53,127 nt of DNA from Pseudanabaena sp. (GTDB lineage: Bacteria; Cyanobacteriota; Cyanobacteriia; Pseudanabaenales; Pseudanabaenaceae), in contig QBMK01000027.1 of the NCBI GenBank assembly GCA_003249035.1, positions 1 to 53,127 of the forward strand, written 5' to 3'. This document shows, one piece after another, positions 1,364 to 16,536 of the stretch. The notes below the pieces were generated by a model, which was not told the DNA's origin, did not search any database, and worked only from the letters and a program-made list of their open reading frames with translations. Each line of letters opens with the position of its first letter. The first letter of the stretch is position 1. The position numbers and the translations under genes are program-made.

Positions 1364-1390
1364 AGATTTTCCTACATAGTTAAAATTATG

Positions 1391-1427
1391 GTAAAGATGG
1401 GCGGCGCTTCGCGCCGCCCATCTTTAC
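1391..1427. repeat. Perfect hairpin, GCGC-TTC-GCGC core family (copy 1)
   Basis: A 37-bp perfect palindrome with 17-bp arms around a TTC triloop, ten bases after the stop of the gene ending at 1438 and before the start of the GMC gene. It belongs to a family of about twelve hairpins in the window with the same centre and different arms. It probably acts as a terminator or 3'-end stabiliser, but no long T tract follows. Confidence 0.85.
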
Positions 1428-1437
1428 GTCATTAGCA

Positions 1438-2268
1438 CTACCTGAGTAGTTCTTTACAACCAGCGATCGCAGATTTTAAAAAGGTGTTAACTTTATCCAT
1501 ACTTGCCTTAGGTTCACCAAATTGAGAAGCAGTAAGAATCGCTCCAACCCAACCTTCTGTGTGCCAAACTCCCTCGCCATCAAGAATCGGTAAATTACTG
1601 CGATCTTCGGGATATGGATAGGGAGTCACATACCAGTAAGGCTCGTTATAGCTTCCATCCCCTGAAGATAGACCGATACCTACTGATTTCTCTTCTCCAT
1701 TTATTTCATCTGGGATAGAAATCAAAGTTGCTATATCGAAATGATGTGGCCAAATGCGAACATCGGATGCCATAGGTTCTTGCTGGACTAAATTTTGGAG
1801 AATGCGATCGGCAATGACGTAGTATTCAGCTAATTCTGAAGTTAGGTTCAGGAGTTGGAAAGTTGCACCACTGGCAAGATCGCTGTCTGGGAAGTCGTTG
1901 GGTGGATAGGAAATTGGGGTAATTAAATCGGAAGCACCGCCCAATCCATTAACGATCGCCTTCATCCAGTCAAACGCTTCAGTCAATGTGCGATCGCCTA
2001 ATGCAAAAGCAGAAATAACTCGATCTTGATCGGTTACAAAATTTAGAGTTAATGCGATCGGATCGAGAGCAAGCCGATATGACTCGAGCGATGTAATTGC
2101 GCGGGTTATAAATCCTAGTCGATCGTCCCAGAATAATCCTTTACTACTTGAATCTGCTAGAGCGTTGGATATGGCTGCCAAGGGCTGAATTGCATAATGG
2201 AGTTGGATTCTCGCTTCAACAAGTTGCTGGAGATCTAATATAAACGATGGTTTATCAGTAATATTCAT
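1438..2268 (-). CDS. Conserved protein of unknown function (DUF5996-like features)
   Basis: A 276-residue soluble protein without signal peptide or membrane segment. The middle and C-terminal parts contain VRIWPHHFDIATLI and later GIGLSSGDGSYNEPYWYVTP, rich in His, Trp and Tyr. They recall DUF5996-type bacterial proteins, whose function is unknown. I rely on memory of motif style, not a search. It starts at an ATG at 2266-2268, 35 bases after the VOC gene's stop, so it is likely cotranscribed with the GMC/SDR genes. The WPHHFD block could bind a metal, but this is a guess. Confidence 0.75.
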   Translation of the reverse strand: MNITDKPSFILDLQQLVEARIQLHYAIQPLAAISNALADSSSKGLFWDDRLGFITRAITSLESYRLALDPIALTLNFVTDQDRVISAFALGDRTLTEAFDWMKAIVNGLGGASDLITPISYPPNDFPDSDLASGATFQLLNLTSELAEYYVIADRILQNLVQQEPMASDVRIWPHHFDIATLISIPDEINGEEKSVGIGLSSGDGSYNEPYWYVTPYPYPEDRSNLPILDGEGVWHTEGWVGAILTASQFGEPKASMDKVNTFLKSAIAGCKELLR

Positions 2269-2303
2269 GATTTTAGGGCTAAAAGTTTTGATTATGCATT
2301 AAC

Positions 2304-3401
2304 TTATTTTTCGATAATCCTCAGGGCATGACCATCGGGATCTCTGACTAAAAATCCGCGCTTAAATCCTAACGAAAGAGAAGGAATCGCGATCGAATCG
2401 GGCGAGATAAAAATTGTGCGGGCAGATCGCAGCTTTTGCGCGATCTCTTTAGCATCTTTGACAACTAAAGTAGTCTGCCAATGCAGCAAATCATTGGTTC
2501 GTGCGTCAGCGGGGTAAGGCTTGCCATCGCTCGGAGACAAATAATCGAGAAACTCAATCCCTAAACCTGATGGCGCTTTTAATCCACTAATGCGTAGCTT
2601 GGCTCCAAACACATTATTGAGATGCTCTTGTTCGGTGCCATAGTTTTCACTTTCGCCTGCCAGTTTGAGTCCTAGAACATCGCGATAAAACTTCAAGCTA
2701 GCATCAGTATTGCTAACAACGATCGCCGTATGGTCAATTCCTAAAAAGACTTGTTGGGAATTCTCTTGCCCCTTATTCTCTTGCCACTTCGGATCGCCTT
2801 TACCTTTAGGGAAATAAATAATTTCTAAATTATGCCCGTCAGGATCTTTGAAGTAGAAAGCGCGAATTCCTGCGGCGGCTTTATTCGTATCAGGAATCCT
2901 TTGTGGGGCTGTCGAAGCATGTTGCACCTTAAATTTGCGAAGGATTTCATAGGCTTTATCCATATCGCTGACTGCGATCGCAATATGTTGAAACCAGCGA
3001 TCGTTACTGCGCGAATCGACAGGAATCGGTCTACCCTTCGGCGTGAGATATTCCGTTAATTCGAGAATCTCTCCGCCTAGGCGCATTTTTACCACTCTCA
3101 AACGCACTCCAAACAAGCCTTGGAGTCGTTCGTATTCAGAGCCTAAGACCTCGACATCAGATACTTTTTGGAAGGATAAAACCTCAGAGTAAAACTGAAT
3201 GGCTTTGTCCATATCTGAAACTGTAATGCCCACAGAGTCAACCGCAGTTACATAAGCTGTCTGAGCTTGGGCGATCGCCAAAGTGACCGCATAGAGCGAT
3301 CCAGCAGATAAAGGCTTTAAGATTGCCGCCTCTTGGGCAAAGACTCCCAATACTAAAGAGAAGGCAATCAGAAAGACTCTTTTTTGGAATTTAATAGCCA
3401 T
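2304..3401 (-). CDS. Exported protein with two VOC (glyoxalase-fold) domains
   Basis: A 365-residue vicinal-oxygen-chelate protein. The ATG at 3399-3401 is chosen because GAGG lies six bases upstream and the product then begins with a basic N-terminus and a long hydrophobic stretch ending AIAQAQ, a plausible Sec signal peptide. Domain 1 (about residues 50-190) and domain 2 (about 220-365) each start with a G(I)-x-V-S-D/N-x-D-x-(A/S)-x-x-F-Y motif and end with a 'DPDGH-x-L-x-I' strand. This is typical of bleomycin-resistance/glyoxalase/dioxygenase-type domains. An exported VOC protein is unusual. The gene starts one base after the stop of the upstream GMC gene, so the two are tightly cotranscribed. 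Catalytic function cannot be assigned. Confidence 0.85.
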   Translation of the reverse strand: MAIKFQKRVFLIAFSLVLGVFAQEAAILKPLSAGSLYAVTLAIAQAQTAYVTAVDSVGITVSDMDKAIQFYSEVLSFQKVSDVEVLGSEYERLQGLFGVRLRVVKMRLGGEILELTEYLTPKGRPIPVDSRSNDRWFQHIAIAVSDMDKAYEILRKFKVQHASTAPQRIPDTNKAAAGIRAFYFKDPDGHNLEIIYFPKGKGDPKWQENKGQENSQQVFLGIDHTAIVVSNTDASLKFYRDVLGLKLAGESENYGTEQEHLNNVFGAKLRISGLKAPSGLGIEFLDYLSPSDGKPYPADARTNDLLHWQTTLVVKDAKEIAQKLRSARTIFISPDSIAIPSLSLGFKRGFLVRDPDGHALRIIEK

Positions 3402-3402
3402 A

Positions 3403-4983
3403 CTATGCCTCAAGTCTTTTGATGAGATGTTCGGCAACCCGCAAAGCATTAGCAATAATTGTTAGAGTCGGATTTACAGCTCCGCTCGAACAGAAAAAAC
3501 TGCCGTCAACAACATAGAGATTATCAATATCGTGGGTTTGGCAATTAAGGTTCAGTACGGAAGTTTGCGGATCTTCGCCAAAGCGACAAGTCCCAACTTG
3601 ATGTCCGACTCCTTGCAAAGGGAGTTTCCCAGTGAAGTAGTTAGTGGAACCTTTTACAAAATAACTGTCATGAGACAGAATGCTCTCACCACAGTCAATT
3701 GATTTAAGAATCTCGATCCACTTTTGTTCCAATCGGGCATAGGGTTCGGCATTATTTTCGGTATAGTCCAAAATAATGCGATCGCCTTCTACACGAACGC
3801 GGTTGTTATGGTCTGGCAAGTCCTCTACAGTCAACCACCAATCTACAGAGTGACTTGCCACTTCTTCAGGCGTGCGGGGAGCGTACGCAGCGGCATTGCC
3901 TTCGATCATTTCCTTATTGACTTTACCAAGGGTTTGGATTTGCCCCATCGGATAGTCGTAGCCATCTTCACCCCAATAGAAATCGTTGATCGATAGAGTC
4001 TTTTGGAACTTGGTGGGATTTGGCTCTTTCGTTACGCCAATAACGGAACCGAGCACGTGTTTCATAAAATTGCGCCCTACCAAATCAGAGCTATTTGCCA
4101 AACCATTCGGGTGTTGGTCATTATGCGATCGCAGCATGATCGTCGATGAGTTAACCGCTCCACAGGAAAGAACGACTATTCCACCCGAAAAGTACTTAAT
4201 CTCATTATTGATGCTTACTTCAACCGTAGTAACCTCCTTACCAGAATCACTGGTATGGAGTTTCAACACCTTAGCTTCGGTCAATAGCGTCAAATTAGGA
4301 TGCTGTATTGCTGGCAGAATCCCAGTCACCTCAGCATCAGATTTAGCATGAACTAGGCAAGGAAATCCATCACAAGTATTACAGCGAATACATTCACTCA
4401 GATGTTGCTGGACTTCATTTAGCCTGATACCCAGAGGCGTATGATATGGATGTAGCCCCTTCTGTTGGAGTGAGTTGCTAACGGATTCCATTCGCGGCTC
4501 GTGGCTGACCGCAGGATAAAAATAATCGTGGCTACGAGGCGGTTCAGTCGGATCGATTCCTTGATTGCCATGAACTTGAAATAGCTTTTCAGCTTCAGTA
4601 TAGTAGGGTTCAAAGTCTCGATATTTTAGGGGCCAAGCTGGAGAGATTCCATCCTTATGCTGATAAGATTCAAAATCTCGTTCGCGCAGACGAAATAAAG
4701 CGGCTCCATAAATCTTAGTATTTCCGCCAACAGAGTAGCTCATACCAGGATGTAATTCGTTGCCATCGCGATCGTACCAAATCTCATCATTATGATAGCG
4801 ATTGCTCTTAAACGCGACTTTAGTATCCCAGTTTTCCTTCTCTCTAGGCATGAAACCGCCGCGCTCTAGCACTAAGATGCTTTTGCCAGTGGAGGCTAGC
4901 TTGTAAGCGAGTGTTCCTCCTGCTGCACCAGTACCGATAATAATGATGTCATAATGCTCTGTAGACAAGTTATCTGTTGACAT
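3403..4983 (-). CDS. GMC family oxidoreductase
   Basis: Full-length 526-residue GMC flavoprotein. The FAD-binding motif IIIIGTGAAGGTLAY is at about residues 13-27 and the family stretch SVGGNTKIYGAALFRLRERD follows. The cysteine cluster C198-x2-C201-x2-C204-x4-C209 lies mid-protein. The C-terminus has VGHQVGTCRFG and VVDGSFFCSSGAVNPTLT, including the usual His/Asn active-site area. I use the ATG at 4981-4983, preceded by AGGA and 10 bases after the SDR stop; a longer form reaching 5028 would overlap the SDR gene. It is a paralogue of the partial gene at 1-1363, so the operon carries two GMC enzymes. Substrate unknown; a sugar or polyol is likely given the SDR neighbour. Confidence 0.92.
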   Translation of the reverse strand: MSTDNLSTEHYDIIIIGTGAAGGTLAYKLASTGKSILVLERGGFMPREKENWDTKVAFKSNRYHNDEIWYDRDGNELHPGMSYSVGGNTKIYGAALFRLRERDFESYQHKDGISPAWPLKYRDFEPYYTEAEKLFQVHGNQGIDPTEPPRSHDYFYPAVSHEPRMESVSNSLQQKGLHPYHTPLGIRLNEVQQHLSECIRCNTCDGFPCLVHAKSDAEVTGILPAIQHPNLTLLTEAKVLKLHTSDSGKEVTTVEVSINNEIKYFSGGIVVLSCGAVNSSTIMLRSHNDQHPNGLANSSDLVGRNFMKHVLGSVIGVTKEPNPTKFQKTLSINDFYWGEDGYDYPMGQIQTLGKVNKEMIEGNAAAYAPRTPEEVASHSVDWWLTVEDLPDHNNRVRVEGDRIILDYTENNAEPYARLEQKWIEILKSIDCGESILSHDSYFVKGSTNYFTGKLPLQGVGHQVGTCRFGEDPQTSVLNLNCQTHDIDNLYVVDGSFFCSSGAVNPTLTIIANALRVAEHLIKRLEA

Positions 4984-4993
4984 TGCTTTTTTC

Positions 4994-5800
4994 CTACTGC
5001 TCTTGATAGTTCCAAAGCAAACCACCATCTACAACAATGGTGGAACCTGTAATGTAGCGAGCCTCGTCAGAAGCTAAAAAAGTCACTACAGAAGCGACAT
5101 CTTCAGGTTGTCCCAAACGACCGAGAGGAATAATTTTTAGCAATGGCTCCAATTTAGAGGGGTCGTTTAGAAGTGCCTTGTTAATTGGAGTTTCGATCGC
5201 ACCAGGAGCGACATTATTGATAGTGATGCCAAGCGCGCCAAGTTCTACCGAAAGGTTCCGCATCATCATCTTCAAAGCGCCTTTGCTGGCACAGTAGGCG
5301 GTAAAGTGGGGAAATGGTAATTCTTCATGAACGGAACTAATGTTAATAATGCGTCCGTCACGCTTGCCTTCGCTAATTTGATGTTTCACGAAAGATTGGG
5401 TCGCAAAGAAAACGCCCTTAAAATTGATATTCATCACCGCTTCAAAATCTTTTTCGGTAACATCCCAAAAATCAGCGTGTTTCTCAATCCCAGCATTATT
5501 AACCAAAATGTCAAGAGTCCCAAAATGCTTGATACTCTCATCGATCAATTTGCGAACGTCATCAACCATTCCCAAATCTGCACCAATACTATAACCGCGA
5601 TCGTTGTCACAGAAGCCTTCAGCCATCATGCAATCTCCACCTGCTGCTTTGATCGCACTTAGAGTATCTTCTGCACCTTGAGGATTAGAGCGATAGTTGA
5701 CCACAACCTTAGCGCCTTCTTTTGCCATGCGAATCGCAATGCCTTGACCGATGCCACCACTGCTTCCTGTAACTAGAGCAACCTTTCCATCCAGCTTCAT
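4994..5800 (-). CDS. SDR family oxidoreductase (glucose 1-dehydrogenase-like)
   Basis: A classical short-chain dehydrogenase of 268 residues. It has the cofactor motif [10 protein letters not shown] (11-20), NNAG, the catalytic Ser in NISSV, a YxxxK in YCASK and the C-terminal GSTIVVDGG. Between GG (54-55) and AD (74-75) it carries about 18 residues where relatives have about six. This is an insertion of roughly 12 residues containing two cysteines, next to the strand that contacts the adenine ring. It is the first gene of the minus-strand operon leading to GMC, VOC, the unknown protein and the second GMC. Substrate is inferred to be a sugar or alcohol. Confidence 0.92.
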
Positions 5801-6007
5801 GTTTTTTTTACCGTGTTAAAATTTGCAATAGTATTGGAATGAAATTCTCGTCAGGGTATGACCATTGAGAAAACATTAAATCATTCTGTTTGAGAAGAGA
5901 CTTAACATTGTTAGAAAAGTATAAAAAAATTCATTAAATTAGCTGATACTTTGAGAAAAATTTTTAAGCGTTCGCTCAGTAAATCATCATTTTTGGATGT
6001 TAAGTAA

Positions 6008-6052
6008 AGATGTAAGAATTGGCAGCGCTTCGCGCCGCCAATTCTTACATCT
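6008..6052. repeat. Hairpin, GCGC-TTC-GCGC core family (copy 2), in a divergent promoter region
   Basis: A 45-bp inverted repeat with 21-bp arms and one A/C mismatch, centred on GCGCTTCGCGC. The gene-free stretch 5801-6137 lies between divergent genes, so this copy is not downstream of either and a terminator role is unlikely here. The rest of the stretch is AT-rich and I see no gene or confident promoter in it. Confidence 0.8.
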
Positions 6053-6137
6053 AAAATCCTTTCCTCTAGGTTATCAATAGAGATATATTAGGGGAGCATT
6101 CCAATTTATTGCTCCATCACAAAAATATAGTCAAGCA

Positions 6138-7166
6138 ATGGCTCAAGAATTTTCTGAAATCCCTAATTCTCAAAATCGGGTTACTGGTTGGTGGTTACTC
6201 TCCATTGCTACCATCATATTTGGCGCTTCTAATGCGATCGCAAGCAAATTGCACGATCTTGGCGATACACATTTGATTGATGGTAGAAATCCCATCTCTT
6301 TTTGCAATAGTCTATTTGTTGGAAATCTCTGCGAACTGGGTGTTTTAATATTCATTTATCATCGAGAGTGGAATATTAAAGAGATTAAAAAGATTAAGTT
6401 GAAAAGTTGGGGTTTTTTAACTATTGTTGCTATTTTAAGTGGCGCATTGGCTCCAGCGTTGATCTTTACAGCTCTGGATAGAACTCAGATCAATAACGTA
6501 ATTTTAGTTAGCAGAATTGAGCCAGCAATTGTTTTAGCTTTATCCATCTTAATCCTCAAAGTTAAAACCAGTTTTTGGGATATTGCAGGAGCAATCGCTA
6601 CTTGTATTGGTGTAGTTTTGGTTACTATACTTCAGCCAATAGCATATTCAAGATTTAATAGTGGAGAAATATTAACTATCATTGCAGCAATAGCTTTAGC
6701 GATCGCCTACACAATCAGTGATGTTCAATTGGTCAACATCCCCCTAGGCTTTTTTAGAGTTTTTAGGACGTTAATAGGCACTTTTGTCTTTGGCTCAATA
6801 GTTATCCTGCTGTTTGGTTTTGAGCATTTTATCGATGTTTTTTCACCCTTCTTATGGCAATGGACTCTAATTTATAGCCTTGTAATTGTTGGGATTGGGC
6901 AGTTCTGCTGGATAAATGCCTTAAAGAAATCTACTTCTATCGATATTACTTTAGCCAGCGCTTTTAGTACAATTGCTGGAATCTTATGTTCCTATTTTAT
7001 TTTGCATCAAGCGCCAAATTTCGCTCAGTATATTGGTGGTGTTTTCATTCTGATTGGCATCATCCTTGGAGACGTGGGAGCATGGATGCAGAATAAAAGA
7101 ATGAAGGGGAAACAACCTCATTCTGCGATCGCTATTGATATGGAGTCAGGCTTCAAGGGCGTATAG
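6138..7166 (+). CDS. EamA/DMT family transporter
   Basis: A 342-residue integral membrane protein with about ten hydrophobic segments, organised as two EamA halves in the drug/metabolite transporter superfamily. The N-terminal half has LIDGRNPIS and GALAPALIFTALD and the second half ends in about 20 soluble residues. It is a paralogue of the gene at 11128-12174 (shared LIDGRNPIS, SRIEP/GRIEP and ALKKST/GLKKST). Both end in the same five residues, GFKGV. No Shine-Dalgarno sequence is evident before the ATG. The substrate is unknown; amino acids, sugars or other metabolites are possible for the family. Confidence 0.88.
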   Translation: MAQEFSEIPNSQNRVTGWWLLSIATIIFGASNAIASKLHDLGDTHLIDGRNPISFCNSLFVGNLCELGVLIFIYHREWNIKEIKKIKLKSWGFLTIVAILSGALAPALIFTALDRTQINNVILVSRIEPAIVLALSILILKVKTSFWDIAGAIATCIGVVLVTILQPIAYSRFNSGEILTIIAAIALAIAYTISDVQLVNIPLGFFRVFRTLIGTFVFGSIVILLFGFEHFIDVFSPFLWQWTLIYSLVIVGIGQFCWINALKKSTSIDITLASAFSTIAGILCSYFILHQAPNFAQYIGGVFILIGIILGDVGAWMQNKRMKGKQPHSAIAIDMESGFKGV

Positions 7167-7188
7167 TCATAGCCTTTGTCACTTTAAA

Positions 7189-7237
7189 AACCCAAAAGAT
7201 AGTTGCAGCGCTTCGCGCCGCAACTATCTTTTGGGTT
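7189..7237. repeat. Hairpin, GCGC-TTC-GCGC core family (copy 3), between convergent genes
   Basis: A 49-bp inverted repeat with 23-bp arms, one A/C mismatch near the centre and AACCC/GGGTT ends. It starts 22 bases after the transporter stop and faces the end of the aquaporin gene, a position that suits a bidirectional terminator. Confidence 0.82.
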
Positions 7238-7294
7238 GTATAAAATCTCATCGATATTCGGCAATCATCTTCTCAAAGTCGAAGTCCAAGATCG

Positions 7295-8077
7295 CTACAG
7301 CTTGCACATCTGACAGCAGACGGGACTAATGCATCGAGTAGAACTATTTGGACAAAGTTTGCAGCATAACTCTGCTCTACTTTTCTTTTTGCCGATCATT
7401 AGCAGATAGAGTTCTGAAGCTAAGATCATTCCTAATGGAGGAGCGACACAATAAATCCAGAACCCAGACCATGCTTGTGCAGGTATAGCAGAACCCAGAG
7501 ATCTAGCAGGATTCATACTCATCCCAGAAATTGGTGCGGCGATCGTAATGTAAATGACCAATAACATTCCAGCAAATAATCCAGTTAACTGAGAAAGCTT
7601 TGGATGATTAGATACATTGAGAATTAAAGTCATCAGTCCTAATGAAAGGATAAATTCAACCAAGAAAGCGATCGATTCACCTGCCGAACTTGGAACTGTA
7701 GCAATATAGTTTACGGCTGGATCGGCGATCGCCATACCAAGTAGAATTCCCGCAAACCAGACACCTATGATTGCACCAAGAACTTGTGCCAAGATGTAAA
7801 AGCATGCATCTATTGTGCGAATTTTTTTAAGTCGCCAAAAGGTCAAAGTTACAGAAGGATTGAGATGTGCGCCCGATCGCTTACCTAAAGGAGAATAAAT
7901 AATTGCGATCGCGGTTAGCCCAATCGCTACACCAATCAAAAATCGTCGTAATAACGGATCTGCGATCGCTTGATGAATGGGAGAGTTAGGAAGTTGAAAA
8001 ATGGCAGTAACCAAGGTAGCCACAACCATAAATACGCCCAAACATAAACCTTCAATCGCATATTCTATGACATTCAT
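7295..8077 (-). CDS. Aquaporin (MIP family) with cysteine-rich C-terminal tail
   Basis: A 260-residue MIP channel with six membrane segments. The first pore loop has NPS at 73-75 (HLNPSVT) instead of NPA; the second has the canonical NPA at 189-191 (MNPARS). The Arg after the second motif is present. After the last helix comes a tail of about 28 residues with seven cysteines in CCKLC, RCI and VCCQMCKL, which could bind metal or be redox-active. Some bacterial aquaporins have a related CAKL...RCI tail. It may pass water, glycerol-like solutes or H2O2. It is last in a minus-strand series behind the flavin/iron-sulfur reductase, from which a short hairpin separates it. Confidence 0.88.
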   Translation of the reverse strand: MNVIEYAIEGLCLGVFMVVATLVTAIFQLPNSPIHQAIADPLLRRFLIGVAIGLTAIAIIYSPLGKRSGAHLNPSVTLTFWRLKKIRTIDACFYILAQVLGAIIGVWFAGILLGMAIADPAVNYIATVPSSAGESIAFLVEFILSLGLMTLILNVSNHPKLSQLTGLFAGMLLVIYITIAAPISGMSMNPARSLGSAIPAQAWSGFWIYCVAPPLGMILASELYLLMIGKKKSRAELCCKLCPNSSTRCISPVCCQMCKL

Positions 8078-8111
8078 TTACTACTCCCGAAAATGCAAAA
8101 GAATTTAGAGT

Positions 8112-8138
8112 GATGTGCGGCGCAAAGTGCCGCACATC
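8112..8138. repeat. Short hairpin of the GCGC-core family (copy 4)
   Basis: A 27-bp hairpin with a GGCGC-AAA-GTGCC centre (one G-T wobble), nine bases downstream of the reductase stop and 34 bases before the aquaporin start. It probably ends or processes the reductase message. Confidence 0.72.
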
Positions 8139-8146
8139 AGGGTCTT

Positions 8147-9499
8147 CTATATATCGAGAACCACCCTTGCGGTCTTGGGTTTAGAAATACAAATCAAAAC
8201 TGAACCGCGATCGACAGAAGCAGTTGGAGTTTCTTCGTAATCAACTTCTCCTTCAGAAATCTTGCACATACAAGTACCGCAAACCCCAACACGACAGCTA
8301 TGATCTGGAAAAATTTCGTTCGCTTCCGCAAACTCTAAAATCGTGCCGTCGGCGGGACTCCAGTTAAGAGTTTTACCAGACTTGCTGAATACTATTTCCA
8401 TAGAATCATGTTCATGAGTTGATTCTTGAGTTGGCACCTCGGCTGGTTCTACCTTTTTGGGCTTAGCTTTAGCAAAAGACTCAAATAGAACCTTATTGTC
8501 AGGAACATTCCATTCTCTTAGCCCATTTCGGAGTGAATCCATAAATGATGGAGAGCCACAGAGAAAATATTGTGCGTCTGTCGAGTCGCATAGGCTCTGC
8601 ATTTCTGGCGCAACTACATTCTTAATCAAATCGACATCAGCATAGCCTTTATGTTGATACTTGCCTTCATCAGTTAAGTTAGGGCGGCTATAGCAATAAG
8701 CAATATGCAAATTAGGATTGCGCTCTGCGATCGCATTGACTTCATCGCGAAATGCATGAAGACTTCCATCTCTTGCCCCATGTAAAAACCAGATATGTCT
8801 TTGTGGATTCAGCAAGCTAGTAGCTTTTGCCATGCTAATCATCGGCGTAATGCCGACGCCATTACTGATTAAGACCGCAGGTTGAGAACTATTCACATCT
8901 AACACGAATTTTCCAGCAGGAGGTTTTGCCAAAATTATCGAGCCTTCATTAATGCGATCATGCATGAAGTTTGAGGCGATCCCAGCAGGAGCGATCGTTT
9001 CAGGAGGAGCAGGTTCGCGCTTAATCGATAGACGATAATAAGTTGAAGATTCGCTGTAATCAGAAAGTGAATAGGTGCGAATTACAGATTTTGGCTGTTC
9101 GGGAATATCTAGCTGAATCGTGAGAAACTGCCCAGGGATGAAATTAGGAATCATCCCGCCATCTAATGGTTTTAGATAAAAAGATGTGATACTGTCGCTC
9201 TCTTTAACTTTGCGATCGACAACAAATTTACGCCAATCTTTCCATTCTGTATTTTTAGCATCATTTTCTGTAGTTTCAGAAGCCGTAGATTTGCTTTTCC
9301 CAGCGGCAAGCCCGCTAACCGTCCCGACAGCAGCACTAGCGATCACTGCATAAACGATTAATTTATGTGTGGATTCATTCTTAGGATTTAACAATAGAAG
9401 CACAGCAGTGGCAGGGATTGTAACAACTGTACTTAAAAAAATTCCAGAAGCTAAGGCCCTAAACAATGGATTTGAGATTCCCCTAATATCTTCTAACAT
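8147..9499 (-). CDS. Membrane-anchored FAD/NAD(P)-binding reductase with C-terminal 2Fe-2S ferredoxin domain
   Basis: A 450-residue electron-transfer protein. Residues about 10-70 hold two hydrophobic helices. A ferredoxin-reductase-type FAD domain follows (RTYSLSD, about 140-146), then an NAD(P) domain (ISNGVGITPMISM). A plant-type 2Fe-2S domain completes the protein with C402, C407, C410 and C437. The layout resembles flavohemoglobin, phthalate dioxygenase and Hcr-type reductases, with a membrane anchor added. It would pass electrons between NAD(P)H, flavin and an iron-sulfur centre at the membrane. The DUF4079 protein with four histidines is directly upstream on the same strand and is a plausible partner. 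The true acceptor is unknown. Confidence 0.9.
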   Translation of the reverse strand: MLEDIRGISNPLFRALASGIFLSTVVTIPATAVLLLLNPKNESTHKLIVYAVIASAAVGTVSGLAAGKSKSTASETTENDAKNTEWKDWRKFVVDRKVKESDSITSFYLKPLDGGMIPNFIPGQFLTIQLDIPEQPKSVIRTYSLSDYSESSTYYRLSIKREPAPPETIAPAGIASNFMHDRINEGSIILAKPPAGKFVLDVNSSQPAVLISNGVGITPMISMAKATSLLNPQRHIWFLHGARDGSLHAFRDEVNAIAERNPNLHIAYCYSRPNLTDEGKYQHKGYADVDLIKNVVAPEMQSLCDSTDAQYFLCGSPSFMDSLRNGLREWNVPDNKVLFESFAKAKPKKVEPAEVPTQESTHEHDSMEIVFSKSGKTLNWSPADGTILEFAEANEIFPDHSCRVGVCGTCMCKISEGEVDYEETPTASVDRGSVLICISKPKTARVVLDI

Positions 9500-9545
9500 G
9501 AGATAGCTCCATCAGTAGTATTGAATTTTATATTTTCGATGGATA

Positions 9546-9596
9546 TCTAGAAGTTAGGATAGTCGGCGCGAAGCGCCGACTATCCTAACTTCTAGA
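9546..9596. repeat. Perfect long hairpin of the GCGC-core family (copy 5)
   Basis: A 51-bp perfect inverted repeat with 24-bp arms around the core GCGC-GAA-GCGC, between the DUF4079 stop (9601) and the reductase start (9499). Such a stable structure between cotranscribed genes should cause partial termination or RNA processing. Confidence 0.85.
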
Positions 9597-9600
9597 ATCT

Positions 9601-10308
9601 TTATTTGACTACCTGTGGACAGGTCTTATTTTTAAAATCGCATTTAGATATGTAAGATGCTTGCCAACTGTAAGGGATCGACAACAAGTCTCTTGCACCA
9701 GTCATGCTCTGCCCTAGAAACAGTAAAGTCGCAAAGATGTTAAGTAGAATATGCACAGTTCGCCAGCGATTTTTACGATCTTGGTAAATGTCCTGCACGA
9801 TTGCTACTGAGAAGATCATCAGTAAAGCTGCGGCTATTCCATAATAGTAGTGGGAAAATAGCCACTCGTTATCGCGACGATAAATCTCTGGTTGAGAACC
9901 CAACAAAATCAATCCCATCCCAGTCAAGGTCGCAAAAATTCCGCGCCATACTTTGCTTGTAGCTCGATAGAGAAATACCATTGAAGCCACAGAAGCAGCA
10001 AACAAAATTGCAACAAAGATAACCCGAAATGGCTCTTTTGTGAAAGTATCGTGATCTAGCATCTTAGAAAAGATCGGAAATGCCATTCCTAATAGTGCTA
10101 CACCCACCACCGATCCGCTTAGCCAGTAACCGATCGCTAAATGCTCGGAACCAACACTTGGAGAAATCTTACTCTTCTCTCCATTTGCGGCTTGCAGACG
10201 ACGTTGACGAGTTAGCCAAGAGCGATTGATGACGATACCAATCAATGGGAATACAAATGCGATCGCGATCGCTGGATGTAGTAAAGCTAGAGTGTCTTTT
10301 AGATCCAT
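9601..10308 (-). CDS. DUF4079 family membrane protein with four helix-end histidines
   Basis: A 235-residue membrane protein when begun at the ATG at 10306-10308; longer forms would use TTG at 10407 or ATG at 10332, and none has a clear Shine-Dalgarno. I recognise a DUF4079-type cyanobacterial/plastid protein. Five or so hydrophobic helices carry H11 (LLHP), H56 (SEHLAIG), H153 (SHYYYG) and H186 (VHILLN) near helix starts. This is the pattern expected of a b-type di-heme four-helix bundle, as in cytochrome b561 or ferric reductase domains. Heme binding is inferred. The neighbouring membrane flavin/2Fe-2S reductase would be a natural electron donor. The C-terminal tail has two cysteines (KCDFKNKTC). 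Confidence 0.8.
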   Translation of the reverse strand: MDLKDTLALLHPAIAIAFVFPLIGIVINRSWLTRQRRLQAANGEKSKISPSVGSEHLAIGYWLSGSVVGVALLGMAFPIFSKMLDHDTFTKEPFRVIFVAILFAASVASMVFLYRATSKVWRGIFATLTGMGLILLGSQPEIYRRDNEWLFSHYYYGIAAALLMIFSVAIVQDIYQDRKNRWRTVHILLNIFATLLFLGQSMTGARDLLSIPYSWQASYISKCDFKNKTCPQVVK

Positions 10309-10415
10309 ATGATTGGTAAGTACAAACAACATTAATGGGATAGAGTCAATTTGCCCCCACTCAATATCAAAGTAGGGGCAGAGAGAAAGTTTATCTTTCA
10401 CCCTCAAAATATCAT

Positions 10416-10802
10416 CTATTTGACTTCGCTGGCAGGGAATGCAGTAATACGTCCCTTTTTAACTGCTACTACGACATCATAGGTAGCACAGTAAGAGAAT
10501 GTAACATCATTAGCTTTATTGTAGAGACTCACTACCATGCCAGCTCCACCTGGCTGCACACCCAAAGGCAAAAGATCGCCAAAGAAAAAGCGACGCAACT
10601 GATCGCCACTTCCAATTTGTCCTTTGTTTTTGGTAATGGTAGCAATGTTTTTTTCTGCTTCGGTTTTTCCAGAAGGCATTGTCTGAGCGATCGCGGAGGG
10701 TTGAAATTGAGGAGTGAATGAGCGCACTGCTACATCGCCAACTCCTATAAAACCTGCTAAAGCGACACTTGTTAGTAAAGGGCTGAGGGACTTGATATTC
10801 AT
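10416..10802 (-). CDS. Small exported protein of unknown function
   Basis: A 128-residue protein. Residues 1-40 look like a signal peptide or anchor ending at AIAQT, and the mature part is about 88 residues with a single cysteine. I recognise no family. It is the first gene of the minus-strand set leading to DUF4079, the reductase and the aquaporin, with a 107-base gap before DUF4079. Residues around LRRFFFGDLLPLGVQPGGAG could form a buried core. It may be the periplasmic or lumenal partner of that predicted redox chain, which is inference from position only. Confidence 0.7.
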   Translation of the reverse strand: MNIKSLSPLLTSVALAGFIGVGDVAVRSFTPQFQPSAIAQTMPSGKTEAEKNIATITKNKGQIGSGDQLRRFFFGDLLPLGVQPGGAGMVVSLYNKANDVTFSYCATYDVVVAVKKGRITAFPASEVK

Positions 10803-10963
10803 TTGAAAATACTCCTAAATTGACTAGCTCAAACTTCGATAACCGGAGACATTTGCCAAATCAGCTAATCTCCACTTCTTAATAGTCGCTTACTGCCCTG
10901 AAACGAAACTGAAACAAACTTACGGGTTATCTAAGTTTATCATTAAAGATAATCAGGCTAAAA

Positions 10964-10979
10964 CTCAGCTTATACTCAG
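10964..10979. promoter_or_regulatory. Phased direct repeat CTGAG-N6-CTGAG (reverse orientation), putative OmpR-type site
   Basis: CTCAG occurs at 10964-10968 and 10975-10979, exactly 11 bp apart. Read on the minus strand this is CTGAG-TATAAG-CTGAG. Spacing of 11 bp is the normal phasing of half-sites for OmpR/PhoB regulators. A matching site is at 13942-13957. The gene-free stretch 10803-11127 separates the redox gene set from the second EamA transporter, so either could be controlled. The stretch also holds an outer CGGGTTA/TAACCCG pair at 10923 and 10981. Confidence 0.5.
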
Positions 10980-11127
10980 TTAACCCGCAAATAGAGTTTG
11001 GTAAGCCTTCTAGAGGGAGATTGCTAATTTATAGTTCCTTTTTAAAGCTACTAAATCCCTTATCCTTTCTAGATCTATATATTATTTAGAAATATCCTCT
11101 ATTTCAGTGCTTCGCGCTGTTCAACCG

Positions 11128-12174
11128 ATGAAAAAGGTTACGAATTTACAGAAATTTTTAGATCGCATTCCTAGCTCAGTTTATCTAGCGATCGCTGTTT
11201 TAATTTTTGCCGCATCAAATTCCGTTACACGGATAGTCACTGACATTGGGGCGCGTAATTTGATTGATGGGAGAAATCCGATCTCACTTTGCAACGTCCT
11301 GTTTATCGGCAATATTTGCGCTTTGGGATTAATGATTCCACTTTTTTATCGAGACTGGAACCCCAATACACTAAAAGCGATAACTCGAAAAGATTGGATT
11401 GGTTTAACGATTACTAGCATTTTAACGGGAGCGATCGCCCCTGCCTTAACGTTTACTGCCCTTGGCAATACTAATGTTGCAAATATCGTGTTAATTGGGC
11501 GTATTGAGCCAATCTTAACTCTGGTATTAAGTGTTTTGCTGTTAGGATTGCGGGTTGATGGTTGGACAGTTGCAGGTTCTTTAGTTTCCTTTGCTGGGGT
11601 AATTGTGGCTGTGCTTTTAGGGGGAGCAGGTAAGATGATGACAATGGCAGGATTCCAAATTGGTACTGGAGAAATTTTTGTAGCGATCGCCGCCGTAATC
11701 GCTTCTATTTCAAATATCAATGCCAAATTCCAATTACAAGCTATTCCGTTAGGGATTTTTACAATCTATCGCAATCTTATCGGAACTGTGATCTTTTTTC
11801 TCTTAGCTACCATTCTTTATGGAGTAGAACATTTTGCGGATGTATTGTCTCCCTTACTTTGGCGATGGATGATCCTCTATGCCTTGGTGATTGCTGTTAT
11901 AGGTAGACTTTGCTGGCTATTAGGCTTAAAAAAATCCACACCAACGGAACTCAATTTAGCGACTTTATTGAACCCCATTCTCACGATATTTATGGCTTAT
12001 TTGATTTTAGGTCAAATCCCAACTCTAGCCCAATATTGGGGATTAGGATTATTAATCATTGGGGCAATTCTCAGTTTTGTTGGCAATCTATATCAGGAAA
12101 AAATCAATCGCCAAGCACCCAAACTAACTGCTATGGAGAAAATGGATATAATTCCAGGCTTTAAAGGGGTTTGA
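11128..12174 (+). CDS. EamA/DMT family transporter (paralogue)
   Basis: A 348-residue membrane protein with about ten hydrophobic segments in two EamA repeats. I use the ATG at 11128; a GTG 21 bases upstream lies in a sequence resembling the window's GC hairpin core. It shares LIDGRNPIS, an APALTFTALG stretch, a GRIEP motif and the C-terminal GFKGV with the gene at 6138-7166. The pair are therefore duplicates on the same strand about 4-5 kb apart. Substrate unknown. A putative response-regulator site lies about 150 bp upstream. Confidence 0.88.
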   Translation: MKKVTNLQKFLDRIPSSVYLAIAVLIFAASNSVTRIVTDIGARNLIDGRNPISLCNVLFIGNICALGLMIPLFYRDWNPNTLKAITRKDWIGLTITSILTGAIAPALTFTALGNTNVANIVLIGRIEPILTLVLSVLLLGLRVDGWTVAGSLVSFAGVIVAVLLGGAGKMMTMAGFQIGTGEIFVAIAAVIASISNINAKFQLQAIPLGIFTIYRNLIGTVIFFLLATILYGVEHFADVLSPLLWRWMILYALVIAVIGRLCWLLGLKKSTPTELNLATLLNPILTIFMAYLILGQIPTLAQYWGLGLLIIGAILSFVGNLYQEKINRQAPKLTAMEKMDIIPGFKGV

Positions 12175-12241
12175 CATCTCCCCACAACAAAGCGATCGCT
12201 ACGCGGGCGATTTCTCCTTCTGAATTGCTTATTTGAATTGC

Positions 12242-12922
12242 TTAATTGCTGCGCCGCATGACGTAACCGATGCCACGCACAGTTTGAATTAGGCGGCTAG
12301 CATTATCAACCTCCAACTTCTGTCGCAAAGTGCGAACATAAACTTCAATAACATTAGAATCACCGCCAAAGTCATAGCCCCACACTTTCTCTAAAATTTG
12401 ATCGCGGGTCATTACTTGTTGACGGTGAACCATCAAATATTCTAATAACTCATACTCACGCACTGTTAACTCGATCGCTCTTCCAGATCGCAATATTTCA
12501 CGGGTACGGCGATTTAAACTCAAATCCTCAAATTCGAGCATATCGCTATCCTCATCTTTAGTACGGCGTAAATTAGAGCGAATTCTGGCAAGCAACTCCT
12601 CAATACTAAAAGGCTTAATCACATAATCATCCGCACCAGCATCTAAACCCGCCACGCGATCGCTAATCTCATCCCTTGCTGTGACTAAGATAATTGGAAC
12701 TTTACTGCCTGTTGAGCGCAACCGCCGACAAATTTCCACACCAGTCAATCCTGGCATCATCCAGTCCAAAATCACTAAGTCGGGTGGCTCTTGCCGAGCT
12801 TGAGTTAAACCATCCAATCCATTGTGAGCCATGCTCACCTGATATCCCTCGCAAGTTAACTCCATCTCAATAAATTGAGCTAGTTTGATATCGTCTTCGA
12901 TTAAGAGGATTTTGGTTGACAT
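12242..12922 (-). CDS. OmpR/PhoB-type response regulator
   Basis: A 226-residue two-domain regulator. The receiver domain has the acidic pair D10/D11, phosphoacceptor D53 (VILDWMMPG), T81 and K103 (VIKPFS). The winged-helix domain begins near residue 130 and ends with QTVRGIGYVMRR. It should bind DNA as a dimer on direct repeats. It is downstream of, and on the same strand as, the kinase at 12984-13745, 61 bases away, which is probably its partner. I do not recognise a specific named cyanobacterial regulator. The CTGAG-N6-CTGAG sites at 10964 and 13942 are candidate targets. Confidence 0.93.
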   Translation of the reverse strand: MSTKILLIEDDIKLAQFIEMELTCEGYQVSMAHNGLDGLTQARQEPPDLVILDWMMPGLTGVEICRRLRSTGSKVPIILVTARDEISDRVAGLDAGADDYVIKPFSIEELLARIRSNLRRTKDEDSDMLEFEDLSLNRRTREILRSGRAIELTVREYELLEYLMVHRQQVMTRDQILEKVWGYDFGGDSNVIEVYVRTLRQKLEVDNASRLIQTVRGIGYVMRRSN

Positions 12923-12983
12923 AAATTTATAAATATATTTAACAAAGAATTAGTGATTGATAAGCAGCCATAGGAGAAGCACC

Positions 12984-13745
12984 TCAATCACAACGTTCAG
13001 AAGAATTGAGAATAATTTTAAAAATACTACCTTCGCCTAATTGAGAATATACATTTAGAGTCCCCCCCATGCCCTCTACCAAAACCCTCGCAATCGCCAA
13101 ACCCAATCCCACTCCACCCGTGTTGCGATTGCGAGAACGATCGACACGATAAAAAGGGTCGAAAATATTGGGTTGCTCCTGAAGATCAATACCACAACCA
13201 CGATCGCAAATACTGATCGCCACAAAATCCTCCAACTTTTCCAATCTAATCGTAATCGCAGCATCCGAATACTTCACAGCATTATCAATCAACCTTAATA
13301 AAACTTGTTGGAGGCGATCGGCATCGGCAAGCACTGAAATATTTGATTGCTGAGATTCAACGACAATTTCACGCTCTTTAGCCTTCATAAAAATAGCGAT
13401 CGCCTCAGATACGCAACCATCTAATGGCACTGGTTCGCGACGCAAACAAATAGCGTGAGACTCCAACCTAGCTAGATCTAAGGTTTCTTGTAATAATTGA
13501 ATCGTATGCTTCATTTCAAACATGGCGATCTCCAGGGCATTCTTTTGGAGATCGGTAAGGTTTTCGTTGCGGCGTTGTATGCTTTGCATATAACCATAAA
13601 CCAGCGTTAATGGCGTTCGCAACTCATGGGAGAAGTTTCTAATTAGTTGTATTTGTTGAGTTTGAACTTCATCAAGACTGACCATCAGATGGTTTGGAGA
13701 TGTCTTTAGCGAAGTGGTCAAAGTAAAGTCACACATATCAATCAC
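12984..13745 (-). CDS. Sensor-less histidine kinase (HisKA plus HATPase)
   Basis: A 253-residue kinase reduced to its catalytic core. The dimerisation/phosphoacceptor domain has H40 in FSHELRTPL, followed by the N box (RLIDNAVKYSD), D box (DRGCGID) and G box (GGVGLGLAIA). There is no input domain, transmembrane segment or HAMP in the ~20 residues before the coiled region. The stretch upstream (13746-13966) holds no recognisable lost N-terminus. It presumably works with the regulator downstream and takes its signal from a separate protein, perhaps the divergent GAF-PAS kinase. Start ATG at 13745; M21 is an alternative. Confidence 0.9.
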   Translation of the reverse strand: MIDMCDFTLTTSLKTSPNHLMVSLDEVQTQQIQLIRNFSHELRTPLTLVYGYMQSIQRRNENLTDLQKNALEIAMFEMKHTIQLLQETLDLARLESHAICLRREPVPLDGCVSEAIAIFMKAKEREIVVESQQSNISVLADADRLQQVLLRLIDNAVKYSDAAITIRLEKLEDFVAISICDRGCGIDLQEQPNIFDPFYRVDRSRNRNTGGVGLGLAIARVLVEGMGGTLNVYSQLGEGSIFKIILNSSERCD

Positions 13746-13941
13746 AGTATTACAAAAAAATTAGCGATCGCTAATATTCGCCATCTCTCCACAATCGTTA
13801 GCTGAAACCTGTAAATTATGGAAAGATCCAAGATTGTGAGCAAAAAATAGAAATTGCTAATATTTTAAATTTATATAAATAATTATTACTCCCCTAAATC
13901 GTTTCAATATGATTTACCTTTAAGTAATTAATTAGTCGATG

Positions 13942-13957
13942 CTGAGTTTTAGCTGAG
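13942..13957. promoter_or_regulatory. Phased direct repeat CTGAG-N6-CTGAG, putative OmpR-type site
   Basis: CTGAG at 13942-13946 and 13953-13957, 11 bp apart with spacer TTTTAG, ends nine bases before the start of the GAF-PAS kinase. It lies in the divergent region shared with the sensor-less kinase/regulator operon. It matches the site at 10964-10979 in reverse orientation. At this position it could repress the plus-strand kinase or autoregulate the minus-strand pair. Confidence 0.5.
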
Positions 13958-13966
13958 TATATTTTT

Positions 13967-15679
13967 ATGAAATACCTTAACCGCCTTTACCTTTCGATAC
14001 TGAAGGTTGTAAAAGTATTTCTAAAAAGCATTAAACTCAATAGTTCCGCTTTGCTGCCAAAGTATCAGGAACGCACAAAAAAACAACAACGAACCTTAGA
14101 AGTATTATCTTCGCTCAGTTATCGTACAGGCGAATTGAAAGGATATCTCCAACTAGTAGCAAATAGCGTTAGTGAATTGCTAGACTTGGATTGGGCAGTT
14201 GTAACCCTTTGTCGTGAAGGATTTGAACGTATTTTAGCTAGCTCAATTGACATGGGTTATGACGAAAACTATCAAGCTGACTTGCATGGTACGCTCACTG
14301 AAACCGTAATTAGTAATGGCAGGTGTCTATATGTAGAAGATGCGTCTATTGATAAAAGCTACGGCGAACCGCCAGATGGCTATTTTGCCTATTTAGGAGC
14401 GCCATTGAGACTGCCCACTGGTGAAATCATTGGCACAATTTGTTCGTTTCATCGGCAGTCCCGTAAATTCACCCATGACGAAATGATATTGGTGGAAATC
14501 TTTGCGGAACGAGCTGCTACAGCTATCGACAACTATAATCTCTACCAAAAGCAACAAGAAATTAATCTAGCATTACAAACTGAGATCATTGAACGTCAAG
14601 AAGTAGAACAAGAGTTAAGAAAAAGTGAAGAGCAATTACGCTTTATCGCCGAAAATTTGGAGCCATTAGTATGGCTGTATTCCCATGATCGCAAGCCAAT
14701 TTATATGAGTCCCATGTTTGAGAAAGTATGGGGCATTCCAGTCGAACAATGGTATGCGGATGGCTCAGTTTGCTTAAATGCTGTTATTCCTGAAGATCGA
14801 GAGATGGTATCAATAGCATTCAAGAACTTGTTTCTAGATGGTAGTAGTTACGATCTGGAATATCGGATTATTCTACCAGATGGAAGCCTCAGGATTATTC
14901 GCGATCGAGCATTTCCGATTATTGATAAAAATGGGCAAACCTATCGAGTTGCGGGAATTGCTGAAGATATTACCAATCGACAACAAGAGCAACAGCGCAC
15001 AATTAAAGCAATGGAAAGACTCTCCGAGATTGGTGAATTTGCCACCACAATTATCCATGAAGTCCGAAACCCATTAACCACAGTGCTAATGGGTTTAAAC
15101 TACTTTTATCGAATGGAACTACCTGAAAATGCAAGAAAGAGATTGACTCTCGCCTTAGATGAAGCAGAACGTCTTAAGCGACTTTTAAATGAGATTCTTC
15201 TCTATGCAAAACATGAGGTTATTCAGCCCGTTCCAGTTGATATGAACAAACTAGCTATGGAGCTTATAGAAAATATTTCTAGTACGCCAGTTGCTATTGG
15301 TAAGCAAATAGTTTTTGAAGCAAGCCCTGAATCCCTAATTGTCTTGGGCGATAAAGATAAATTCACTCAGGTTTTGATCAACATATTGCAAAATGCCTGC
15401 GAAGCAGTACCAGAAGGAGAAAAAATTTCTGTAAGTTTTTCCTCTTTGACCAGTTCTCGCCAAATTTGCTTGCAAGTCCAAAATAGAGGCACACTTATTC
15501 CTGCTGAGCTTTTACCCAATTTAACCAAACCATTTATGACAACTAAACCCGATGGTAATGGATTAGGTTTAGCGATCGTCAAAAAAATTGTAGAAGCTCA
15601 CGGCGGCACAATAGAAATTGAATCTTCAGCGATCGCAGGCACAATAGTTAGTATTTTATTGCCGACGGCTACAAATTAA
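13967..15679 (+). CDS. GAF-PAS sensor histidine kinase
   Basis: A 570-residue cytoplasmic kinase. An N-terminal basic segment is followed by a GAF domain (about 52-190), a coiled linker (about 195-225), a PAS domain with PAC (about 220-345) and a HisKA/HATPase core. The phosphoacceptor is H364 in IIHEVRNPLTTV; the N box reads LINILQNACEAV and the G box GNGLGLAIVKKIV. It resembles NtrB/AtoS-type kinases in the core. No phytochrome-type bilin cysteine was identified with confidence. It is divergent from the sensor-less kinase and may feed into the same regulator, since no regulator follows it. Signal unknown. Confidence 0.92.
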   Translation: MKYLNRLYLSILKVVKVFLKSIKLNSSALLPKYQERTKKQQRTLEVLSSLSYRTGELKGYLQLVANSVSELLDLDWAVVTLCREGFERILASSIDMGYDENYQADLHGTLTETVISNGRCLYVEDASIDKSYGEPPDGYFAYLGAPLRLPTGEIIGTICSFHRQSRKFTHDEMILVEIFAERAATAIDNYNLYQKQQEINLALQTEIIERQEVEQELRKSEEQLRFIAENLEPLVWLYSHDRKPIYMSPMFEKVWGIPVEQWYADGSVCLNAVIPEDREMVSIAFKNLFLDGSSYDLEYRIILPDGSLRIIRDRAFPIIDKNGQTYRVAGIAEDITNRQQEQQRTIKAMERLSEIGEFATTIIHEVRNPLTTVLMGLNYFYRMELPENARKRLTLALDEAERLKRLLNEILLYAKHEVIQPVPVDMNKLAMELIENISSTPVAIGKQIVFEASPESLIVLGDKDKFTQVLINILQNACEAVPEGEKISVSFSSLTSSRQICLQVQNRGTLIPAELLPNLTKPFMTTKPDGNGLGLAIVKKIVEAHGGTIEIESSAIAGTIVSILLPTATN

Positions 15680-15822: not shown

Positions 15823-16536
15823 ATGAATATTTTTCAGCGAAATTTGTATATTTTGGGTGGCATTGTTGGTAGCTTTGCGATCGCATCTTTGTTTCTGAAC
15901 TCCCTTGTTCCCGCAAAGGCGATTAACACTGAGTTGCTGAATACTGAACCCAAGGCAACTCAAACTTCTACTGCGGCTATCCCTAATATCAATCAGAAGG
16001 GAACGATGACAGCCGTATTCGCGGGTGGGTGCTTTTGGGGAACAGAGGCAGTATTTGAGCATCTAAAAGGAGTTTCCAATGTTGTTTCTGGGTATTCTGG
16101 AGGAAGTGCTGCAACTGCTAATTATGAAACTGTCGGCTCTGGGCGTACGGGACATGCTGAATCCATCAGAATCACCTACGATCCTTCTCAAATATCCTAC
16201 GAGAAGCTTCTTGAAATATATTTTTATGTAGCACATGACCCAACCCAACTAAATCGACAAGGGCCCGATCGCGGCACTCAATATCGATCGGCTATATTTT
16301 TCGCTAATGGTGAGCAGCAGAAGATCGCAGCAGCCTATATTGAGAGACTCAATCAGACTAAAAGTTTTTCTAAACCTGTTGTGACTCAGTTAGTTCCTTT
16401 AGAGCATTTTTATGTAGCAGAAGATTACCATCAAGACTTTATTGTTCGTAATCCCACATACCCCTATGTTGTCGCTCACGACCTACCGAAACTTGCTCAG
16501 TTAAAAAAGCAGTTTCCTGAAATCTACAAAGAGTAA
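15823..16536 (+). CDS. msrA: Peptide-methionine (S)-S-oxide reductase, exported, single-cysteine type
   Basis: MsrA repairs methionine-S-sulfoxide in proteins. The catalytic motif GGCFWGTE places the nucleophile at C70. Other family blocks are present (GYSGG, THAESIR-like TGHAESIRITYDP, EDYHQDF, Asp/Glu at the active site). Residues 1-33 form a signal peptide or anchor ending PAKA, so the enzyme should act in the periplasm or thylakoid lumen. No other cysteine exists in the protein, so the usual resolving cysteine is absent and regeneration must use an outside thiol. It is a single gene; a GC-core hairpin follows about 70 bases downstream. Confidence 0.95.
   Translation: MNIFQRNLYILGGIVGSFAIASLFLNSLVPAKAINTELLNTEPKATQTSTAAIPNINQKGTMTAVFAGGCFWGTEAVFEHLKGVSNVVSGYSGGSAATANYETVGSGRTGHAESIRITYDPSQISYEKLLEIYFYVAHDPTQLNRQGPDRGTQYRSAIFFANGEQQKIAAAYIERLNQTKSFSKPVVTQLVPLEHFYVAEDYHQDFIVRNPTYPYVVAHDLPKLAQLKKQFPEIYKE

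Follow-up and report, generated by a model that had tools for sequence, protein, structure and literature searches.

We examined a cluster of four genes at positions 7295-10802 of a 53,127-nucleotide stretch of Pseudanabaena sp. DNA (the window), which is one whole contig (C19) of a 4.55 Mb assembly of 60 contigs. All four lie on the minus strand and encode a small exported single-cysteine protein of 128 amino acids (10416-10802), the long form of DUF4079 (9601-10308), a membrane-anchored FAD/NAD(P)/2Fe-2S reductase of 450 amino acids (8147-9499) and an aquaporin with a cysteine-rich C-terminal tail (7295-8077), which confirmed the place and identity given to them in a first-pass annotation of the sequence. 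By a narrow judgement, we lean towards a reading in which the first three form a modular transmembrane chain that carries electrons from NAD(P)H through FAD, a 2Fe-2S cluster and two b hemes to a periplasmic partner. This reading rests directly on gene content, invariant histidines, cofactor motifs, a remote kinship to cytochrome b561 and a recurrent gene order.

The mechanism that we infer extends to heme binding, the pairing and sidedness of the histidines, the direction of flow, contact with the partner, the acceptor and the role. Cytosolic NAD(P)H would reduce the FAD of the reductase and then its 2Fe-2S cluster, an N-terminal hairpin holding the enzyme at the inner membrane. Electrons would pass from the cluster to a cytosol-side heme b of DUF4079 (H56/H186) and onward to a periplasm-side heme b (H11/H153). 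The outer heme would in turn reduce the exported protein, or a DM13 protein in other lineages, which would hand the reducing power to periplasmic targets, most likely in repair or stress defence. A stress or repair role of this kind is suggested by neighbouring genes for AhpC/TSA, glyoxalase and an apparently exported single-cysteine MsrA.

DUF4079 as a putative b-type cytochrome

The window protein belongs to DUF4079 (PF13301) by the Pfam gathering cut-off, with a score of 142.5 bits against 31.4. The mechanically called open reading frame (ORF) begins at a TTG at 10407, while the ATG at 10308 gives 235 amino acids with histidines at positions 11, 56, 86, 153 and 186. H86 falls outside the invariant columns. 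The remaining four were invariant in 35 of 35 long forms (33 genomes and the window), in 65 of 65 sequences from named genomes and in 15 of 15 DUF4079 proteins when short forms were included. The four histidines singled out in the first-pass annotation were thereby confirmed, no loss of conservation being encountered. The source genome carries two further, shorter DUF4079 genes. Long and short forms have ten invariant columns in common, including all four histidines; the short form corresponds to a four-helix core and the long form carries an insertion between the second and third histidine.

The model of the window protein (mean predicted local distance difference test (pLDDT) 87.3, predicted template-modelling score (pTM) 0.81) has six helices predicted to be transmembrane, at residues 3-41, 52-85, 93-115, 119-137, 153-169 and 181-220, and in both alignments and model the four invariant histidines sit in four separate helices, one each. 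C223 and C230 in the C-terminal tail are each at least 90% conserved among 65 sequences. Lysine and arginine total 13 in the loops 28-56, 115-122 and 171-186 as opposed to 5 in the segments 1-9, 78-93 and 138-152. Based on this difference, the positive-inside rule applied to one sequence would place H56 and H186 on the cytosolic side and H11, H153 and the tail with its two cysteines on the periplasmic side, a contrast tempered by 5 more lysine and arginine residues in the tail itself.

Cytochrome b561 moves electrons across the membrane as ferric reductases do, with ascorbate as its donor. A scan of 146 genomes with PF03188 (Cytochrom_B561) matched six genomes, five of them above the cut-off. 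Two of the matched places (G002 and G063) were the same ORFs found with PF13301 and a third, L239, is also a DUF4079 protein (103.5 bits on PF13301, 33.4 bits on PF03188); the matches in G005, G090 and G073 covered only part of the model. The short DUF4079 proteins L239 and L240, at 33.4 and 31.1 bits, were colinear with PF03188 over nearly the whole model and were the only ones above its cut-off of 23 out of six DUF4079 proteins scanned. When a profile of 15 DUF4079 proteins (A6) was run against 177,635 PDB sequences, the best match was the b561 structure 4o6y (E 0.0067), followed by a match at 0.42. Pairwise comparison of L239 with 4o6y scored 89.5 against 40.5 +/- 7.7, maximum 69.5, for 500 shuffles that do not preserve transmembrane segments. 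The b561 residues aligned with DUF4079 histidines are heme ligands.

Eukaryotic b561 (PF03188; 4o6y and Dcytb, 5zle) resembles DUF4079 in having four helices each with one conserved histidine, and an HP motif at the first histidine is common to both. The long form departs from b561 by two additional helices and a tail with a pair of cysteines, and would receive its electrons from an NAD(P)H reductase instead of ascorbate; identity between the two is 17-18% in the VIA alignment. DUF4079 may share a Pfam clan with b561. The families matched by the window protein at E<=1 did not include Ferric_reduct (PF01794). Together, the invariant histidines and the b561 relationship support the earlier proposal of a four-histidine b-type cytochrome, and we regard DUF4079 as a putative di-heme b561-like cytochrome.

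Reductase, exported protein and gene order

The reductase was assigned to the FAD/NAD/2Fe-2S (PaaE/Hcr) type by its Pfam domains (FAD_binding_6, NAD_binding_1 and C-terminal Fer2) and its motifs, RTYS and GVGITP being intact and the 2Fe-2S cysteines C402, C407, C410 and C437 kept in 10 of 10 sequences. The flavin/NAD(P)/2Fe-2S reductase of the first-pass annotation was hereby confirmed, and its membrane anchor corresponds to two N-terminal hydrophobic stretches recognised by eye. The closest solved relatives are flavohemoglobins (1cqx, E 6.7e-52, residues 73-343), the reductase module of which reduces a b heme. The FAD/NAD module is shared; the globin is replaced here by a hydrophobic membrane hairpin and a 2Fe-2S domain is added at the C-terminus. 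Reductases of the PaaE/Hcr type are among the closest sequences, yet the NCBIfam equivalog cut-offs were not reached for PaaE (122.1 of 420.8 bits), Hcr (90.3 of 383) or flavohemoprotein (PRK13289, 256.5 of 432).

Gene order was compared in 80 named loci, the best 80 of 532 relatives, which favour the kin of the window; four of these loci end downstream and two upstream of DUF4079. The exported protein is present upstream of DUF4079 as first described, its signal peptide being judged by eye. Its family is unassigned, with no match in Pfam (E<=0.1) or NCBIfam. Cys105 was invariant in 26 of 26 sequences, and the motif cysteine was found in 27 of 27, 25 of which contain no other. In the model (mean pLDDT 73.4, blocks within residues 51-120 at 84-91) the mature part forms two helices and a four-stranded sheet. 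Foldseek gave no match at E<=0.001, the best VIA match (Z 5.0) was an unrelated protein and no sequence relative was found in the PDB (best 3eoe, E 1.1). In 10 of the 80 loci a DM13 protein occupies the same place directly upstream of DUF4079. DM13 is named 'Electron transfer' by Pfam and one body cysteine was kept in 19 of 19 DM13 proteins. DOMON/DM13 electron-transfer proteins thus resemble the exported protein in locus position and in the one body cysteine, without profile similarity, and homology to DM13 (PF10517) was rejected on the absence of a Pfam match and an hhalign probability of 11.9 over 16 columns. The presence of two unrelated exported single-cysteine proteins beside the same cytochrome is the main reason for seeing them as redox partners of DUF4079.

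The distribution of the genes was investigated further in a phylum sample of 244 genomes, counting the reductase at E<=1e-60 and the aquaporin at E<=1e-20. The long form of DUF4079 was present in 72 of these 244, the exported protein in 24 (one weak), the reductase in 6 (7 copies) and the aquaporin in 18; PF13301 was found in 50 genomes of a phylum sample of 116. For the Fisher tests, whose p values are uncorrected for kinship, one weak exported-protein match (G211, E 0.004) was set aside, as were six aquaporin genomes whose matches fell short of E 1e-50. The long DUF4079 accompanied the exported protein in 22 of 23 genomes as opposed to 50 of 221 without it (p 3e-12), the two lying within 5 kb in 14 of the 23, and it accompanied the reductase in 6 of 6 genomes as opposed to 66 of 238 others (p 6e-4).

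Within the family of the window (38 genomes, 32 with DUF4079), 10 genomes hold 11 copies of the reductase; 9 of these copies, each in a different genome, stand directly beside DUF4079. The order exported protein, DUF4079, reductase, all directly adjacent, was observed in 9 of the 80 named loci, namely six Pseudanabaena-like loci, Drouetiella (L159), an Oscillatoriophycideae metagenome-assembled genome (L173) and Calothrix NIES-4101 (L183). The 80 loci and the family search have strains in common and do not count as independent. The linkage of reductase and DUF4079 expected from the first-pass annotation was accordingly seen outside the window. In a quick DUF4079 tree, with Shimodaira-Hasegawa-like approximate likelihood ratio (SH-aLRT) support only and L153 left out, the reductase-linked loci fall at three places and well-supported branches force at least four changes. 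Such scatter may reflect repeated assembly of the set or an old set that was often lost.

Directly upstream of DUF4079 on the same strand, the exported protein was found in 15 of the 80 loci and AhpC/TSA in 8, the exported protein then lying one gene further upstream. A second conserved setting, of Microcoleus type (L133-L149, L165), has a LysR gene divergent from the exported protein, followed by AhpC/TSA in some cases, DUF4079, in some cases a cupin, and EamA. The form with AhpC between the exported protein and DUF4079 is found in relatives of Synechocystis (L165). In a Microcoleus locus (L160, 9045-10775) the gene after DUF4079 encodes a Proton_antipo_M protein of 576 amino acids, and ORFs matching it in length stand at this place in several other Microcoleaceae loci. 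A same-strand histidine kinase with overlapping ORFs follows DUF4079 in 8 of the 80 loci, 6 of which have DM13 upstream. These six are Nostocales loci (L168, L176, L182, L190, L194 and L201) in which a DM13 lipoprotein-like gene, DUF4079 and the kinase have overlapping ORFs, a possible redox-sensing triad.

Weighing of the proposed chain against other explanations

Several results weigh against the proposed chain. In the phylum sample 66 of the 72 DUF4079 genomes lack the reductase at the threshold used, and 5 of the 7 reductase copies are not beside DUF4079, the two adjacent ones both belonging to the genus of the window; of the five, one accompanies an aquaporin (G000:C46) and the other four have SDR, GMC, glyoxalase, DM13 or EamA genes as neighbours. 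With the reductase in only 6 of the 72 DUF4079 genomes and 2 of its 7 copies adjacent, we describe the chain as modular. In the window a strong 24-bp hairpin stands between the DUF4079 and reductase genes, so that their co-transcription is not assured. L117, whose genome has no long DUF4079, encodes two homologues of the exported protein (8227-8574 and 13345-13629) that show no signal peptide by eye and lie amid SDR genes. As for b561, the window DUF4079 scored 11 bits on PF03188, below the cut-off of 23, and we therefore file it as probably a distant relative and not a member. The profile match to 4o6y had a best single stretch with an i-Evalue of 1.6 and a high bias of 15.5 and aligned only the last two histidines, while in the pairwise alignment of L239 the first, third and fourth line up and the second does not. 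A phmmer search of the PDB with the window DUF4079 and L239 found no b561, and Foldseek with the DUF4079 model gave nothing at E<=0.001, 4o6y ranking 50 at E 3.7. In the VIA fold comparison 4o6y reached Z 8.3 (root-mean-square deviation 4.0, 146 aligned) and b561, Dcytb, NOX5, SpNOX and STEAP2 together spanned Z 7.8-8.3, yet rhodopsins were higher, at up to 10.5.

Other known systems offer a standard of comparison. In the accessible part of PMC3591440, FRE/NOX enzymes are described as passing electrons from NAD(P)H to FAD and two b hemes and on to the outside, with two histidines in transmembrane segment 3 (TM3) and two in TM5, 13-14 residues apart. The working scheme of this FRD superfamily is the same as that of the proposed chain. 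DUF4079 does not show its pattern of two histidines per helix in two helices, 13-14 residues apart, having one in each of four helices instead, and the reductase, unlike that of FRD enzymes, is encoded separately and carries a 2Fe-2S domain. In MsrPQ with its flavin reductase, a cytosolic flavin reductase and a heme b membrane protein serve periplasmic reductive repair. The proposed chain is alike in these three respects; it differs in that no MsrP counterpart was identified in the neighbourhood of the cluster and in that DUF4079 is not an FRD protein. By analogy, the chain would work like FRE/NOX or MsrPQ, but with other parts: a cytochrome related to b561, a 2Fe-2S reductase from a gene of its own and an exported protein of no known family.

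The same wire could have another end, with Fe(III) or O2 reduced at the periplasmic face and the exported protein as an accessory. Cytochrome b561 works in this manner and a b561 ferrireductase is what the DUF4079 profile matched. FRE/NOX enzymes do likewise in what is accessible of PMC3591440, and an inner-membrane ferric reductase is being sought in cyanobacteria, ARTO being one candidate (PMC7676907, in part). No iron-uptake gene was however identified among the part of the neighbours that was scanned, DUF4079 lacks the FRD arrangement in TM3 and TM5 and this reading would not explain why DUF4079 is so tightly linked to exported proteins, and we hold this outcome to be unlikely. Electrons could also flow inward or enter the quinone pool, in which case DUF4079 would oxidise the exported protein and the reductase would work elsewhere. 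The many DUF4079 genomes without a reductase and the Proton_antipo_M protein of L160 fit such a direction, but the reductase directly following DUF4079 at three places of the tree does not, which makes it distinctly improbable in our view.

A mere neighbourhood, in which shared regulation in a stress and sugar-oxidation region holds the genes together and the reductase serves another enzyme, would account for reductases beside SDR, GMC, glyoxalase or DM13 genes without DUF4079 (L085-L087) and for the reductase with an aquaporin alone on G000:C46 (L069). It is given little credence, since order and adjacency are conserved and the long DUF4079 is present in each of the six phylum-sample genomes that have the reductase, at the kinship-uncorrected p value given above. 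Still less is given to redox sensing, by which DUF4079 and its exported partner would report the periplasmic redox state to a histidine kinase: the overlapping kinases of the 8 loci, 6 with DM13, and the histidine kinase and response regulator genes preceding the exported protein in several Pseudanabaena loci would be explained, but 72 of the 80 loci have no following same-strand kinase and sensing needs no dedicated NAD(P)H reductase.

Neighbouring features and wider meaning

The aquaporin (MIP family, PF00230) scored 119.8 bits against a cut-off of 25, and 75.7 of the 256 bits set for the AqpZ equivalog. Its cysteine tail, CxK[LMI]...[RT]CI..C, was seen by eye in 13 of 13 sequences, and so the tail noted in the first-pass annotation is real and conserved. 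The cytosolic cysteines and histidine of this tail (window 7295-8077, L117, L119-L127 and L183) are a possible metal site. As a conserved part of the chain the aquaporin did not hold up, being near the locus in 5 of the 9 reductase-linked loci, while 8 of 10 aquaporin loci without the reductase have SDR, GMC, glycosidase (identified from one representative) or glyoxalase genes. It is probably part of a neighbouring SDR/GMC/glycosidase module and not an obligate part of the chain, and the passage of H2O2 through it, also proposed earlier, was not supported. In L183 the SDR/GMC-type gene set and the electron-chain set stand together. The source genome has a second reductase and aquaporin pair, without DUF4079, on G000:C46 (L069, 3172-5298).

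The perfect hairpin between DUF4079 and the reductase (9548-9594, no strand assigned) belongs to a palindrome family and was not judged part of the system. A similar hairpin occurs at this gap in L129 and L131 and a weak stem in L173, and none was found there in L153, L146, L132 or L159; its absence from the same place in close relatives ruled it out as a conserved part of the cluster. The palindrome tip GGCGCTTCGCGCC has 9 copies in the window at up to 2 mismatches (0.57 expected), at 1403, 6024, 7207, 8119, 9565, 16628, 19614, 49293 and 50984. Folding of intergenic DNA gave long hairpins, with differing arms, at three places: near 7191-7235, near 8119-8131 and at 9548-9594.

The nearest relatives of the cluster among the best 80 of 532 are from Pseudanabaena. 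The closest of these is P. biceps O153 (L153), with a DUF4079 96% identical to that of the window, on a record titled plasmid unnamed3. SDR/GMC/glycosidase/glyoxalase-type genes lie at 2-5800 of the window. A response-regulator-like gene (by eye and BLAST) and a histidine kinase (Pfam) at 12242-13745 on the minus strand are a possible regulator of the cluster; several Pseudanabaena loci have such genes in front of the one for the exported protein. A promoter scan of 6000-14000 was uninformative (15 sites, 21 expected). The MsrA at 15823-16536 (PMSR, E 5.2e-60) has an N-terminal hydrophobic stretch and its single cysteine sits in GCFWG. Apparently exported and with a single cysteine, this MsrA would depend on an external reductant in the periplasm. 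An MsrA stands close to the cluster in L129 and L130 too; none was seen in the flanking sequence retrieved for the seven remaining reductase-linked loci.

One further extension of the chain, a heme-to-thiol outlet in which DUF4079, perhaps via C223/C230, feeds the single-cysteine exported proteins (the exported protein or DM13), is speculative and we rate it as unlikely. If true, it would provide periplasmic reducing power separate from transmembrane thiol-disulfide exchange, and its targets could include the MsrA at 15823-16536.

In the literature searched, DUF4079 appeared in one paper, where it labels an entry in a table of Nodularia transcription starts with high read numbers, and PF13301 was not mentioned. 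The route by which electrons leave cyanobacterial cells as photocurrent is described as largely unknown in the accessible part of PMC9243294, and for iron reduction ARTO and superoxide are the candidates named in that of PMC7676907. If the proposed chain is true, DUF4079, a domain carried by 50 genomes of a phylum sample of 116, would gain both a function and a mechanism, and a defined gene set would be at hand for studying the export of electrons from the cyanobacterial cytosol.

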